This document shows, in pieces, positions 4,744 to 14,766 of a stretch of 64,000 nucleotides of DNA. Positions within the stretch are counted from its first letter, which is position 1. Every line of letters starts with the position of its first letter. Origin of the DNA: Pseudomonas sessilinigenes. GTDB lineage: Bacteria > Pseudomonadota > Gammaproteobacteria > Pseudomonadales > Pseudomonadaceae. The stretch spans positions 4,774,001 to 4,838,000 of the forward strand of contig NZ_CP027706.1 in NCBI RefSeq assembly GCF_003850565.1. Direction: 5' to 3'. A program made the position numbers and the translations under genes. Below the pieces are notes generated by a model. That model saw nothing but the letters and a program-made list of their open reading frames with translations, was not told where the DNA came from and searched no databases.

Positions 4744-5049
4744 TCAGCGATACGCCGTGGCGATACCCCGGCGTTCGCTCAGGCAATCGGCCTCGCCCAA
4801 TTCGAATTCGCGGCAGATCAAGGGGCGCAGCTCATAGATCGTGCAACGCATGCTGTCGCGATCCAGAGCTGCGCACCAGCCATCATCCAGGCGGCGCATC
4901 ACCTCGCCTCCCCAGTCGTCGGTATCGATAAAGCGCTCGGGCACCCCGGTATCGGTGATCAGCATCACTTCCAGCTGGCAGCAGCAGGCGGCGCAGGTCG
5001 AGCAACTGATGGCGGGTTCGGCGATGGGGGTAACGGGGATGGTGGTCAT
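4744..5049 (-). CDS. YkgJ/YcgN-type cysteine-cluster protein
   Basis: This 101-aa protein has the CxxCxxCC cluster (CSTCAACCC) followed by spaced cysteines (WCAALD, CTIYELRPLIC, ADC), the pattern of the YkgJ/CxxCxxCC family, which is thought to bind zinc or an Fe-S cluster. Its biochemical role is not known. I chose the internal ATG at 5049 (MTTIPVTP); the longer frame to 5100 adds an unlikely N-terminus. It is the last gene of the minus-strand photolyase operon, 54 bases after the DUF2878 gene, so it may also have its own expression. It faces pagL with only 7 bases between the stops. Confidence 0.8.
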   Translation of the reverse strand: MTTIPVTPIAEPAISCSTCAACCCQLEVMLITDTGVPERFIDTDDWGGEVMRRLDDGWCAALDRDSMRCTIYELRPLICREFELGEADCLSERRGIATAYR

Positions 5050-5103
5050 AGGCGCGCAGTGTAAGGCAGTGGGGCCTGGCTGTGTGAAAGCCCTGACCAA
5101 CGC

Positions 5104-5613
5104 TCAGCCTTCGGTGGCCAGTGGTGGAGCCTCGGGGGCCACTCGTGCCAACACGTGCAGCAGCGGCAACAGCAGGGCCCAGAGCACTCCCAGCCCGATC
5201 GGCCCTGTTCCGTAGGGAAAGCTCACGCCGGCCAGGCGCCCCCCTGCGTAGTAGGACAGCGGACCTGCCAGCGCTCCCAGCAGGCAGGCTCGCCACCAGG
5301 GGCGGGCACTCCAGGCCAGGCCGTGGCGCAAGGTGCTGGCCAGAAGGACCCAGAGCAGCATCAGCCAGAAGGGAATCAATAGACTGACTTGCTGGAACTG
5401 AAACACCCCCAGCCAATTCAGGAAGCTGTCCAGGGTGATGCCGATCAGGGCAATGCCGAGCATCATCGGGCCTTCGTCGCCCCAGCGGCCGACCCAGCGA
5501 AAGTGCGCCAGTACGATCACCACTCCAAGCAATAGCCACAGGCTGTCGCCACTGAGTACGCAGGTGAACCAGCCCAGCTGGAACAACAGGGCATTGAGCA
5601 GTTGCCTAGGCAT
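5104..5613 (-). CDS. DUF2878 integral membrane protein
   Basis: This 169-aa protein is almost entirely hydrophobic, with about five to six predicted membrane spans (for example LWLLLGVVIVLAHF and FWLMLLWVLLAST). It fits DUF2878, a family found beside Cfa-like methyltransferases in bacterial photo-oxidative stress clusters. It has no assigned activity; it could be a membrane partner of the lipid-modifying enzymes upstream. Its ATG overlaps the end of the Cfa-like gene by 8 bases. Confidence 0.8.
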   Translation of the reverse strand: MPRQLLNALLFQLGWFTCVLSGDSLWLLLGVVIVLAHFRWVGRWGDEGPMMLGIALIGITLDSFLNWLGVFQFQQVSLLIPFWLMLLWVLLASTLRHGLAWSARPWWRACLLGALAGPLSYYAGGRLAGVSFPYGTGPIGLGVLWALLLPLLHVLARVAPEAPPLATEG

Positions 5614-6877
5614 CGAGGCGCCCCAGCAGGGGCTGTGGCGCCGCAGCGGGTTTGGCCAGCAGCAGTTGCGCGGTGCCGATGGCGCGCTCCAGGAAGCCGC
5701 CTTCGCAGTAGCACAGGTAGAACTCCCAGAGCCGCAGGAAATAGGGGTCGTAGCCCAGCTCGCCCAGGCGGCCGTGGGCGCGGCGGAAGTTCTCGTGCCA
5801 CAGGCGCAGGGTCCGGGCGTAGTGCAGGCCGAAGTCTTCCATGTGCAGCAGGTTCATGTCGGTGTCGCGACTGACCACCTCGAGCATTTTCTGCACGCAG
5901 GGCAGGGCGCCACCGGGGAAGATGTAGCGCTGGATGAAGTCCACGCCGTTCTTCGCCTGCTCGTAGCGCTGGTCGCGAATGGTGATGGCCTGCAGCAGCA
6001 TCAGGCCGTTGCTCTTGAGTAAGCGTGCGCATTGCTTGAAGTAAGTGGGCAGGAAGCGGTGGCCCACGGCTTCGATCATTTCGATCGACACCAGCTTGTC
6101 GTACTGGCCGCGCAGGTCGCGGTAATCCTCCAGCAGCAGGGTCACCCGGTCCTGCAAGCCGGCGGCGTCGATCCGCTGCCGGGTGTAGGCGAACTGTTCC
6201 CTGGACAGGGTCGTGGTGGTGACCCGGCAGCCATAGTGCTGCGCGGCATACAGGGCCATGCTGCCCCAGCCGGTGCCGATTTCCAGCAGGTGGTCCTCGG
6301 GAGTGAGCGCCAGCTTCTGGCAGATGCACTGCAGCTTGTTCAACTGGGCCTGCTCCAGGCTGTCCTCGGCACTGCGAAACTGCGCGGCGGAATACATCAT
6401 GGTGGGATCGAGGAACTGCTCGAACAGCTCATTGCCCAGGTCGTAGTGGGCGGCGATGTTTTTCTGCGAACCCTTGCGGGTGTTGCGGTTGAGCCAGTGC
6501 AGGCCGCGAACCAGCGGCCGGCCGAGCCTGGCCAGGCCGCCTTCCATGGCGTCCAGCACTTCCAGGTTGCTGACGAACACGCGGATGACCGCTGTCAGGT
6601 CCGGGGTGCTCCAGTAGCCATGGATGAAGGCTTCGCCGGCACCGATGGAGCCGCTGCTGGCCACCAAGCCCCAGGCGCTGCTGTCATGGACGTGGATTTC
6701 TCCCTGCAGGGCGCCGTCGCTGCTGCCGAACACCCGTCGCTCGCCATCTTCGTAGACCACCAACTGGCCGTGCCGAAGTTGCGCCAGTTGCCGCAGCACG
6801 CCACGGCGCAACAGGTTGGCGGTGAGGCCGTGAGTGCTGAACAGAGTGGTTTTGGCCGAGACGCTAGAGGATTTCAT
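5606..6877 (-). CDS. Cyclopropane-fatty-acyl-phospholipid synthase-like SAM methyltransferase
   Basis: This 423-aa member of the Cfa family transfers a methylene or methyl group from SAM to unsaturated acyl chains of membrane phospholipids. The SAM loop is LLEIGTGWGSMALYAA (residues 197-212) and the C-terminus has the family motif LRLWEFYLCYCEGGF. Compared with E. coli Cfa, the bicarbonate-binding Cys139 is replaced by Ala164 (MYSAAQF) and His266 by Gln296 (LLQAIT), while the Glu239 equivalent (Glu269, MIEAVG) is kept. It may therefore methylate without making a cyclopropane. The start is ATG 6877, overlapping the DUF1365 gene by 14 bases; a longer frame to 6922 is unlikely. It is one step of the operon that carries phrB. 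Confidence 0.85.
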   Translation of the reverse strand: MKSSSVSAKTTLFSTHGLTANLLRRGVLRQLAQLRHGQLVVYEDGERRVFGSSDGALQGEIHVHDSSAWGLVASSGSIGAGEAFIHGYWSTPDLTAVIRVFVSNLEVLDAMEGGLARLGRPLVRGLHWLNRNTRKGSQKNIAAHYDLGNELFEQFLDPTMMYSAAQFRSAEDSLEQAQLNKLQCICQKLALTPEDHLLEIGTGWGSMALYAAQHYGCRVTTTTLSREQFAYTRQRIDAAGLQDRVTLLLEDYRDLRGQYDKLVSIEMIEAVGHRFLPTYFKQCARLLKSNGLMLLQAITIRDQRYEQAKNGVDFIQRYIFPGGALPCVQKMLEVVSRDTDMNLLHMEDFGLHYARTLRLWHENFRRAHGRLGELGYDPYFLRLWEFYLCYCEGGFLERAIGTAQLLLAKPAAAPQPLLGRLDA

Positions 6878-13521: not shown

Positions 13522-13538
13522 GTCAAATTGTTTGTATA
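13499..13538 (-). promoter_or_regulatory. Promoter and LitR-type operator of the photolyase operon
   Basis: On the minus strand there is a sigma70 promoter: -35 TTGACT (13526-13521), a 16-base spacer and -10 TATGAT (13504-13499). TATACA (13538-13533), twelve bases and TGTACA (13520-13515) bracket the -35 element. This agrees with the T(G/A)TACA-N12-TGTACA consensus I recall for LitR/PplR regulators of Pseudomonas. Further TGTACA copies lie at 13483-13488 and 13464-13469. Binding across the -35 would repress transcription. The promoter calls are by eye. Confidence 0.75.
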
Positions 13539-13567
13539 GGTATTGTCCCCGGACCGAGTGCGCCCGG

Positions 13568-13783
13568 TTATTGCCAGCCCATTCGCCAGTCGCGGTCGTC
13601 CTGCAGGGTTTGCCAGCTCAGGCGCTGGCTGCGTCGGGTAAGGACCGCCTGCAGCTCGATATCCAGCACGGTGCCTTCTTCATCGCAGAACAGTTCGGTG
13701 ACCAGGAAGTGTTTCTCGCGGTGTTGCGGGTGGGCTGCTGTCCACTTCGACAGCAGCAGTTTGCGCGGGTTGAGGCGATTCAC
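13568..13783 (-). CDS. TIGR02450-type small Trp-rich protein
   Basis: This 71-aa protein begins [18 protein letters not shown] and continues with [11 protein letters not shown], the pattern of the TIGR02450 family of short Trp-rich proteins found beside photolyase-type genes. No function is known. The start is GTG 13783, which overlaps the stop of the upstream FAD oxidoreductase as GTGA. The longer frame to 13909 is a shadow of that upstream gene. Confidence 0.82.
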
Positions 13784-14766
13784 TGCAAGCTCTCGTGGAG
13801 TCGGCGTGCGGCCTCTTGGCCACTCAGCCAGGCGCCTTCGACCCGGCCGGACAGGCACCAGTCGCCACACACGTACAGGCCCAGGTCGGCATCGGCCAGT
13901 GCGCCCCATTCATGGCTGGTGGCCGGGCGGGCGTAAAGCCAGCGGTGGGCCAGGCTGAAGGTGGGGGCGGGCATGACGCTGTGCAGCAGCTCGGCGAAGG
14001 CACCGTGCAATTGCTCGGTCACGGCTTCTTTCGAGAGGTCGATGTGCTGCCGGCTCCAGGAGCTGGTGGCGTGCAGGACCCAGGTATCGAGGTGGCTGTC
14101 GTGCCCGGGCTTGCTGCGGTTACGGGCCAGCCAGTCCAGCGGACTGTCCTGCACGAAGCAGCCTTCCATCGAGGTTTCCAGAGGGGTGTCGAAGGCCAGA
14201 GCGACTGCCCAGGTGGGGTCCATTTTCACTCCGGCGGCGACCCCCGCGAGCTTCGGCGCGGCAGCTAGCAGGGCCGTGGCCTGCGGGGCCGGGGTGGCGA
14301 TCACGACATGGCTGAAAGGGCCATGGGTGAAGCCTTCCGCATCCTGCAGGTGCCAATGCTGTTCGCCGCGGAAGACTTCGGTGATGCGGCAGGCGAAATG
14401 GGCTTCGAGGTCGCCGATCAGGGCACGGGTGATGGCGCTCATGCGCGGGGTGCCGACCCAGCGGGTCTGCTCATCCGGCGAGGGACTGAGCTGGCCGCCG
14501 TGGGAGTTGTAGAGCTGCGGTGTCCACTCGGCGACCCAGCCCTTGGCTTGCCAGCGCTGGACTTCGGTGACGAAACGCCGGTCGCGGGCGGTGAAGTACT
14601 GGGCTCCCAGATCCAGGCTGCCGGCATCGCTGCGCTTGCTCGACATGCGCCCGCCGCTGCCGCGGCTTTTGTCGAAAAGGTGGACGATATGCCCGGCATC
14701 TCGTAGCGCCTGGGCGGCGGAGAGTCCGGCGATGCCGGTACCAATGATTGCGATGGGTACTGTCAT
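13780..14766 (-). CDS. NAD(P)/FAD-dependent oxidoreductase, renalase-like
   Basis: This 328-aa flavoprotein starts at ATG 14766 with the FAD-binding motif [17 protein letters not shown], followed by [16 protein letters not shown], typical of renalase-like amine oxidases found next to photolyase genes. The substrate is unknown. The first 18 codons of the longer frame lie in the promoter region and are not included. It is coupled to the Trp-rich protein downstream and transcribed towards the photolyase operon. Confidence 0.85.

Follow-up and report, generated by a model that had tools for sequence, protein, structure and literature searches.

Which signal switches on an operon that joins a DNA photolyase to lipid-modifying enzymes and carries a MerR-family regulator of its own? 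The question is raised by a 64,000-nucleotide stretch of Pseudomonas sessilinigenes (Gammaproteobacteria; assembly GCF_003850565.1, contig NZ_CP027706.1), hereafter the window, which covers positions 4774001-4838000 of a 6.9-Mb genome held on a single contig. The operon consists of ten minus-strand genes at window positions 4744-13438. It would be a counterpart of the pplR1 and pmlR1 light operons of other pseudomonads, with photo-protective products and under a LitR repressor that has lost its vitamin B12 (cobalamin) site and is relieved by a receptor of the LOV type; we put the probability of this model as a whole at roughly 85%. A preliminary description of the locus had proposed a photolyase and photo-protective lipid module under a cobalamin-type light regulator, with no sigmaE-ChrR pair visible; the module, the missing ChrR and a light-type regulator within the operon stand, while the cobalamin sensor does not. 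Published statements cited below are taken from excerpts of PMC9758184, PMC5507510, PMC7380195, PMC6852236 and PMC11417400, and the L and G numbers are our labels for loci and genomes.

The operon reads, from its head to its tail:

12488..13438, minus strand: RudS, tRNA 4-thiouridine desulfidase family (TudS/DUF523 + DUF1722; domain search)
11549..12484, minus strand: LitR1, predicted class II LitR (MerR helix-turn-helix and B12-binding_2 domains, no B12-binding domain; domains and CarH alignment)
10096..11535, minus strand: PhrB, deoxyribodipyrimidine photolyase (NF007955 above cut-off)
9678..10112, minus strand: SnoaL/NTF2-like protein (domain search)
8911..9681, minus strand: short-chain dehydrogenase (SDR) in the place of RSP1087 / PSPTO_1119 (domain search; PMC5507510)
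7667..8914, minus strand: UfaD-like desaturase of the flavin amine-oxidase family (domains, literature, census of loci)
6864..7670, minus strand: UfaO-like DUF1365 protein, putative furan-forming oxygenase, GTG start (domains, literature)
5606..6877, minus strand: UfaM-like acyl methyltransferase of the Cfa family (sub-cut-off scores with the Cfa equivalog models)
5104..5613, minus strand: DUF2878 protein (domain search)
4744..5049, minus strand: putative metal-binding CxxCxxCC (YkgJ-type) protein, alternative TTG start at 5100 possible (open reading frame, domain)

All ten genes carry the domains first assigned to them and lie where they had been placed; the extent originally given, 4744..14766, also takes in two genes of another unit described further below. 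The gene labelled DUF523/1722 had its domains right and can be named more closely, as TudS (PF04463) fused to DUF1722 (PF08349) is the architecture of RudS. Most junctions had been said to overlap by 4-14 bases: six of the nine overlap, five of them within that range (4 nt each for SnoaL-SDR, SDR-UfaD and UfaD-UfaO, 14 nt for UfaO-UfaM and 8 nt for UfaM-DUF2878), but PhrB and SnoaL share 17 nt (8 nt with a second ATG) and three junctions are gaps, namely RudS-LitR1 (3 nt), LitR1-PhrB (about 13 nt) and DUF2878-CxxCxxCC (54 nt, or 3 nt from the upstream TTG). The PhrB start is taken here as the ATG at 11535. The LitR1 proteins closest to this one among named Pseudomonas loci are those of Pseudomonas sp. 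Au-Pse12, P. piscis and P. sp. PH1b (88%) and P. protegens (86-87%), in a search that may omit records of the source genome itself.

The head of the operon holds the following putative control elements:

13499..13526, minus strand: sigma-70-type promoter TTGACT-N16-TATGAT before rudS, overlapping the operator; its boxes are those of P6650 of P. mendocina
13515..13538, minus strand: perfect PplR/LitR operator TATACA-N12-TGTACA (motif scan, putative site)
13483-13488 and 13464-13469, minus strand: extra TGTACA half-sites downstream of the main operator (motif scan)

A direct repeat of the class II LitR form, T(G/A)TACA-N12-TGTA(C/T)A, thus stands upstream of the operon, as judged by presence and conservation of the site: it occurs without mismatch in 78 of 80 named Pseudomonas loci and carries one mismatch in the other two, as against three to four mismatches at best, in all 80, for a control stretch of the same length within phrB. 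Because gene order and operator recur together at these loci, the layout is not a product of chance.

If the regulator worked like CarH, adenosylcobalamin would in darkness keep LitR1 bound to DNA, and light would break the cofactor. LitR1 does align with CarH over residues 26-272 and retains PF02607 beside its MerR helix-turn-helix, and the B12 ligand signature is intact in 20 of 33 MerR rows found near modules of this kind. However, a Pfam search finds no PF02310 in LitR1, a leucine takes the place of the histidine of CarH's GERHEIG, and the EEH motif of CarH reads EQV. The histidines of the two CarH motifs are, we assume, the cobalamin ligands His177 (axial) and His142. As the B12-binding domain and the ligands are both missing, LitR1 is, by its domains and residues, a class II LitR and not a cobalamin sensor; a cobalamin switch was accordingly rejected for this operon, a CarH-type LitR1 deserves next to no credence, and the cobalamin-type regulator first proposed gives way to a separate short LOV protein as the likely sensor. 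A cobalamin switch probably does control relatives of the module, given the 20 rows that keep the signature; 11 lack it, the signature having been judged by eye and with L064 and L067 cut by the ends of their stretches, and two further rows (L123, L143) were set aside because they do not resemble LitR. Pfam separates the two kinds imperfectly: five of six signature-bearing proteins match PF02310 (two above and three below the cut-off) and that of L104 does not, and the ligand-less LitR of L117 still gives a weak match below the cut-off.

A search of the genome for other LitR proteins returns one further strong match, LitR2 (E = 9e-37), and three weak MerR hits (E from 4e-9 to 5e-4). One gene away from litR2 is encoded a 157-residue short LOV protein with the DCRFLQ motif, and the association of a short LOV gene with a LitR paralogue is a mark of class II LitR systems. 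Residues 1-151 of this LOV protein are nearly identical to the solved chain 7r5n, and residues 1-133 align with 3sw1, presumably PpSB1-LOV. Genes resembling folM, folE and folX, on inspection by eye, belong to the same locus. Read from its ATG, the gene between litR2 and lov (L052:6237-6896) matches nothing in Pfam or NCBIfam; its longest frame meets lov by one base. The sensor for the operon is likely this short LOV protein, encoded elsewhere in the genome. Blue light raises the expression of pmlR1, phrB and ufaM of P. mendocina about 6- to 33-fold; nine genes there likely form one unit, and the lit LOV protein removes LitR2 (PmlR2) from DNA and so acts as an anti-repressor (PMC9758184). When P. 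putida loses its two LOV genes, transcription becomes constitutive at a low level, as cited in the same paper.

On this basis, the B12-less LitR proteins (LitR1 from the operon, LitR2 from elsewhere) would sit in the dark on TGTACA-type direct repeats and repress the sigma-70 promoter before rudS that these repeats overlap. Blue light would produce a cysteine-flavin adduct in the short LOV encoded near litR2; the lit receptor would bind LitR and strip it from DNA, and the operon would be transcribed. Gene content, operator, promoter boxes, LOV-LitR2 locus, loss of the B12 ligands and the lack of a ChrR match are features of this genome itself.

Among the predicted products, PhrB would repair ultraviolet lesions and RudS would take the near-ultraviolet chromophore 4-thiouridine out of tRNA. 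The RudS orthologue PP_0741 of P. putida, expressed in E. coli, caused the largest drop in tRNA 4-thiouridine of six tested and also lessened the growth delay under ultraviolet A; three conserved cysteines are named for the family (PMC11417400). UfaM, UfaD and UfaO would use the cis-vaccenate of the membrane to make a methylated furan fatty acid that is destroyed by singlet oxygen. The window brings together the Cfa-like methylase, flavin desaturase and DUF1365 protein of the furan pathway; DUF1365 is the UfaO domain, the three Ufa proteins suffice for furan acid in R. sphaeroides, and homologues from R. palustris produce it in that host (PMC7380195). That singlet oxygen promotes destruction of furan acids is published. 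The resemblance to the Rhodobacter sigmaE-ChrR regulon noted at the outset is borne out, since the same Ufa enzymes, photolyase and SDR are present. Light induction, LOV-LitR2 binding, UfaM/UfaD/UfaO chemistry and RudS activity have been established in relatives; we infer the mechanism published for them for this strain as well, with products that would jointly counter light damage.

That resemblance also brings up a different input, namely that the operon responds mainly to singlet oxygen through sigmaE-ChrR, on the model of Rhodobacter and, where phrB is concerned, of P. syringae. The phrB promoter of P. syringae DC3000 is singlet-oxygen-induced through PSPTO_1043/1042, the sigma factor binding inside PSPTO_1122 (PMC5507510), and the published blue-light response of V. 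cholerae requires both MerR and ChrR. Against this input, a ChrR profile search of the whole P. sessilinigenes genome gives no match at 1e-6, so that the earlier remark that no sigmaE-ChrR pair is visible holds genome-wide at the level of ChrR, and the system was ruled out for the source genome on this ground. Of three Cupin_7 hits (L055, L056 and L057), the best, L055, was inspected: it has no sigma factor beside it, and its neighbours resemble, by eye, a hydrolase and a protein of the ThiJ type. The corresponding promoter site is degenerate:

11633..11658, minus strand: place inside litR1 matching the sigmaE/ChrR promoter of ChrR-bearing Pseudomonas; two mismatches, both in the -35-like box

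The window therefore lacks an intact (T/A)GATCC-N16-CGTA before phrB. Among 400 random 350-nt stretches, 79 held a best site with two mismatches, 15 with one and none a perfect site; since two-mismatch sites are this common by chance, the one in the window is called homologous for its place only. Control by sigmaE-ChrR is thus very improbable here.

Within Pseudomonas the two inputs appear to trade places. Among 149 genomes, short LOV (E ≤ 1e-40) occurs in 133 and DUF1365 in 109; 102 have both and seven have DUF1365 without LOV (Fisher p = 0.013). Full-length ChrR is found in only four of the 149, with a partial cupin match alone in 13 more; it is present in three of the seven LOV-less DUF1365 genomes as against one of the 102 LOV-bearing ones (Fisher p = 6.5e-4, ignoring relatedness). 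All four ChrR-bearing genomes carry a perfect AGATCC-N16-CGTA at an identical position within litR, 119 nt ahead of phrB, compared with none of nine ChrR-less genomes read, the two-mismatch window included (p = 0.0014, again ignoring relatedness); nor is a perfect site present in any of 78 named loci of undetermined ChrR content. The ChrR-bearing genomes read also keep LitR1 and its operator, and from the statement in PMC5507510 that the pair is unique to the P. syringae group we infer that they are P. syringae-like. The same source reports that several P. fluorescens have the site before phrB and no such sigma factor, a combination not seen in the present genome set. The side-by-side promoter comparison and the apparent trade-off of ChrR with LOV are added here; no published work with such a comparison was evident from titles or abstract openings in literature searches.

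Several points weigh against the LOV-relieved light operon as read here. Expression and lipid steps in this strain rest on relatives, and LOV-LitR binding, known for PmlR2, is extended to LitR1. LitR2 occurs in all 18 LOV-bearing Pseudomonas genomes tested (of the 133) and in none of 16 LOV-less ones; the two may be partners, or their co-absence may reflect mere linkage of neighbouring genes. Six of the seven LOV-less DUF1365 genomes keep LitR1 before the block together with a perfect operator, so LOV cannot always be the input. LitR1 might then respond to light or stress unaided, or by way of a different LOV protein, the LOV-LitR2 pair being dispensable: these six genomes lack both partners, and the best LOV matches in genomes without short LOV lie in long frames of 548-1347 residues. 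The constitutive low-level transcription of the P. putida double LOV mutant argues the other way, and we hold a dispensable pair to be rather unlikely. Four loci (L268, L270, L273 and L274, in G382, G397, G489 and G496) have the lipid block with neither short LOV nor full ChrR; LitR1 stands before the block in three, and a perfect operator before the block or operon in all four.

The lipid product is the other point of doubt. The functions of UfaO and UfaD here would follow from their family and from the orthology of P. syringae proteins that, with UfaM, are 35-39% identical (PMC5507510), and no title on furan acids in Pseudomonas came up in a literature search. Pseudomonas UfaO-like proteins may have drifted, giving a product other than a furan acid, such as a methyl-branched or diene acyl chain. 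The R. palustris homologues that do make furan acid in R. sphaeroides (PMC7380195), and the contiguity of UfaD-UfaO-UfaM at 93 of the 101 loci of the census below, speak for the furan acid; a non-furan product is unlikely.

The census addresses the wider question of what controls this lipid module across the class. DUF1365 occurs in 115 of 370 sampled genomes, and 101 loci were compared (the window and 100 of the 114 other genomes, 14 with weaker, split or contig-end hits being left out). PhrB lies within 9.5 kb of the module at 24 of them. By the regulator found within the same distance, which makes a neighbour and is no proof of control, the loci fall into those with none (37, some of them shortened by contig ends), MerR (28), a histidine kinase and response regulator (15), an extracytoplasmic function (ECF) sigma factor with ChrR (14), one half of ECF-ChrR (4), MerR with a kinase pair (2) and ECF-ChrR with MerR (1). 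L064 and L067 count as none here and as B12-LitR in the tree labels, where the limit is 9.8 kb. The neighbours thus include B12-LitR, B12-less LitR, ECF-ChrR and a two-component pair, in agreement with the original suggestion of one lipid module under different switches. L100 (ECF-ChrR-RudS-PhrB-SnoaL-SDR-UfaD-UfaO-UfaM) is an operon much like the present one, headed by ECF-ChrR and with no MerR.

At L092, ECF-ChrR and a B12-less LitR with PhrB and RudS lie near the same lipid module, with a perfect LitR operator; this locus is possibly an intermediate between switches. Twelve of the 15 kinase-pair loci share one kinase family, L146, L148 and L152 carrying a less similar kinase. The recurring kinase is found near modules at 15 loci (L068, L070, L072, L074, L077, L094, L102, L112, L121, L127, L128, L130, L134, L135 and L154), with a response regulator beside it at 14; its two predicted membrane segments flank some 95 residues that are partly conserved. 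Scans of the kinases of L130 and L070 gave no Pfam sensor domain, and no NCBIfam cut-off was reached among the matches listed.

In a quick tree of 93 UfaD-UfaO-UfaM concatenates, each switch label requires several changes, with at least five to eight forced by starred branches (the ChrR label including loci with just one of ECF and ChrR). The window falls in a starred set of 12 that comprises four kinase-pair loci, three with none, three with B12-less LitR and two with ChrR. The pattern is what switch exchange would look like; but quick-tree stars are less trustworthy, letter composition differs in many rows, and whole-cluster transfer is an alternative. Perfect operators are confined to the window, L114 and L092 among these 93 loci, so the operator is not general across the class.

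Short LOV (E ≤ 1e-50), searched in 62 of the 101 census genomes, is present in seven, all among the 11 with B12-less LitR; it is found in none of the 20 B12-LitR, 14 ChrR, 15 kinase-pair and two dropped genomes. The contrast of 7/11 with 0/20 gives a Fisher p of 1.3e-4, and by family (hand count) 4/8 against 0/17 gives 0.0055. On the LitR tree, 11 of 12 B12-less rows, LitR2 of this genome included, form one supported clade, and B12 loss needs just two changes, with two independent pairs, in a tree in which long branches meet. As B12 loss is in effect one event, these p-values are overstated, and the correlation was rejected as independent evidence on account of phylogenetic non-independence. 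At L147, L149 and L151, which come from another family, the LOV gene faces the end of the MerR-PhrB-Ufa operon itself in convergent orientation. Four genomes (G283, G299, G129, G248) have B12-less LitR without short LOV, and one of them, that of L092, has ECF-ChrR.

The lipid block also has two homes within Pseudomonas, either behind RudS-LitR1-PhrB, as in the window, or straight behind LOV (L275-L280, which are six of 20 neighbourhoods chosen for closeness of LOV and DUF1365). By coordinates, LOV and DUF1365 are at most 3.5 kb apart in 12 of the 102 genomes with both. UfaM is at the window's place in 41 of the 80 named loci, and RudS-LitR-PhrB-SDR stands there without Ufa in 31, some being cut by contig ends. 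The photolyase and furan-lipid set may be an output cassette whose input has been swapped many times among four switches (cobalamin LitR, LOV with B12-less LitR, sigmaE-ChrR and an undescribed membrane histidine kinase pair), with Pseudomonas showing the swap in progress through its two block homes and, in ChrR carriers, a singlet-oxygen promoter inside a light repressor gene, three of these four carriers being devoid of the LOV-LitR2 pair; we consider the odds on this picture evenly balanced.

Upstream of the operon lies the second unit mentioned above:

13780..14766, minus strand: flavin adenine dinucleotide (FAD)-dependent oxidoreductase (domain search)
13568..13783, minus strand: DUF2389 tryptophan-rich small protein (domain search)
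14814..14837, minus strand: predicted second LitR operator TATACC-N12-TGTACA before the FAD gene, one mismatch (motif scan)

With an operator of its own, this pair is probably a separate unit co-regulated with the operon; the one-mismatch site recurs in 70 of 79 named loci and in none of 79 upstream control stretches. Counting a single strand in either case, the genome has 20 sites with at most one mismatch and the reversed control motif has 8; those examined are the two in the window and a perfect one at L053. The latter (L053:5842-5865, genome 3003841-3003864) is the sole perfect operator besides the operon's. It is flanked by a response regulator gene, divergently oriented, and a CHASE3-GAF hybrid histidine kinase gene; a rough base-composition estimate predicts about 0.3 perfect sites by chance, and this one may be a chance match or the mark of a new light-regulated gene. 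At the other end, a convergent gene resembling pagL by eye (window 4176-4736) leaves 7 nt between its own end and that of the operon.

Taken as a whole, the operon suggests that bacteria without photosynthesis, such as this one, may ready themselves for sunlight in one programme of DNA repair, tRNA de-thiolation and a singlet-oxygen-reactive lipid. It is itself a well-conserved example of a light regulon already known, and the interest lies in the picture of switch exchange: the same effectors under several sensors form a test bed for asking whether bacteria are better served by sensing light or the damage it does, and by what route the promoter of one sensor can come to lie inside the gene of another.

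The pplR1-3/LOV light regulon of P. putida KT2440 is reportedly the subject of Sumi 2020. Like the operon described here, that regulon combines class II LitR, short LOV and light-induced phrB and ufaM, but it has three LitR and two LOV proteins (PpSB1-LOV and PpSB2-LOV), as cited in PMC9758184, against two and one here. Induction of such an operon by light has thus already been published in two species, P. putida and P. mendocina; for P. syringae, the same is true of the control of its phrB part by sigmaE-ChrR. RSP1087-1091 and RSP2143-2144 of R. sphaeroides comprise the same lipid enzymes, photolyase and SDR; unlike the present operon, they are under sigmaE-ChrR and lie at more than one place (PMC7380195, PMC6852236). 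The orthologues of RSP1087, 1090, 1091, 2143 and 2144 in P. syringae form one locus with 34-39% identity (Butcher et al., PMC5507510), and the ECF sigma/ChrR regulon of PSPTO_1043/1042 in DC3000 includes the same phrB-to-cfa block. The P. syringae type differs by its second input, from the sigmaE promoter in the gene before phrB, and short LOV, present in the genome of the window, is missing from three of the four ChrR-bearing Pseudomonas genomes. By comparison, the pmlR1 operon of P. mendocina NBRC 14162 belongs to another species and is given as nine genes, with UfaM and, in the excerpts, not UfaD or UfaO named; it likewise groups a first gene, LitR, phrB, SDR, FAD oxidoreductase and ufaM, has the same -35/-10 boxes (P6650) and operator consensus, and is accompanied by a separate LitR2-LOV locus with folM-folE-folX, which again makes two LitR and one short LOV (PMC9758184).

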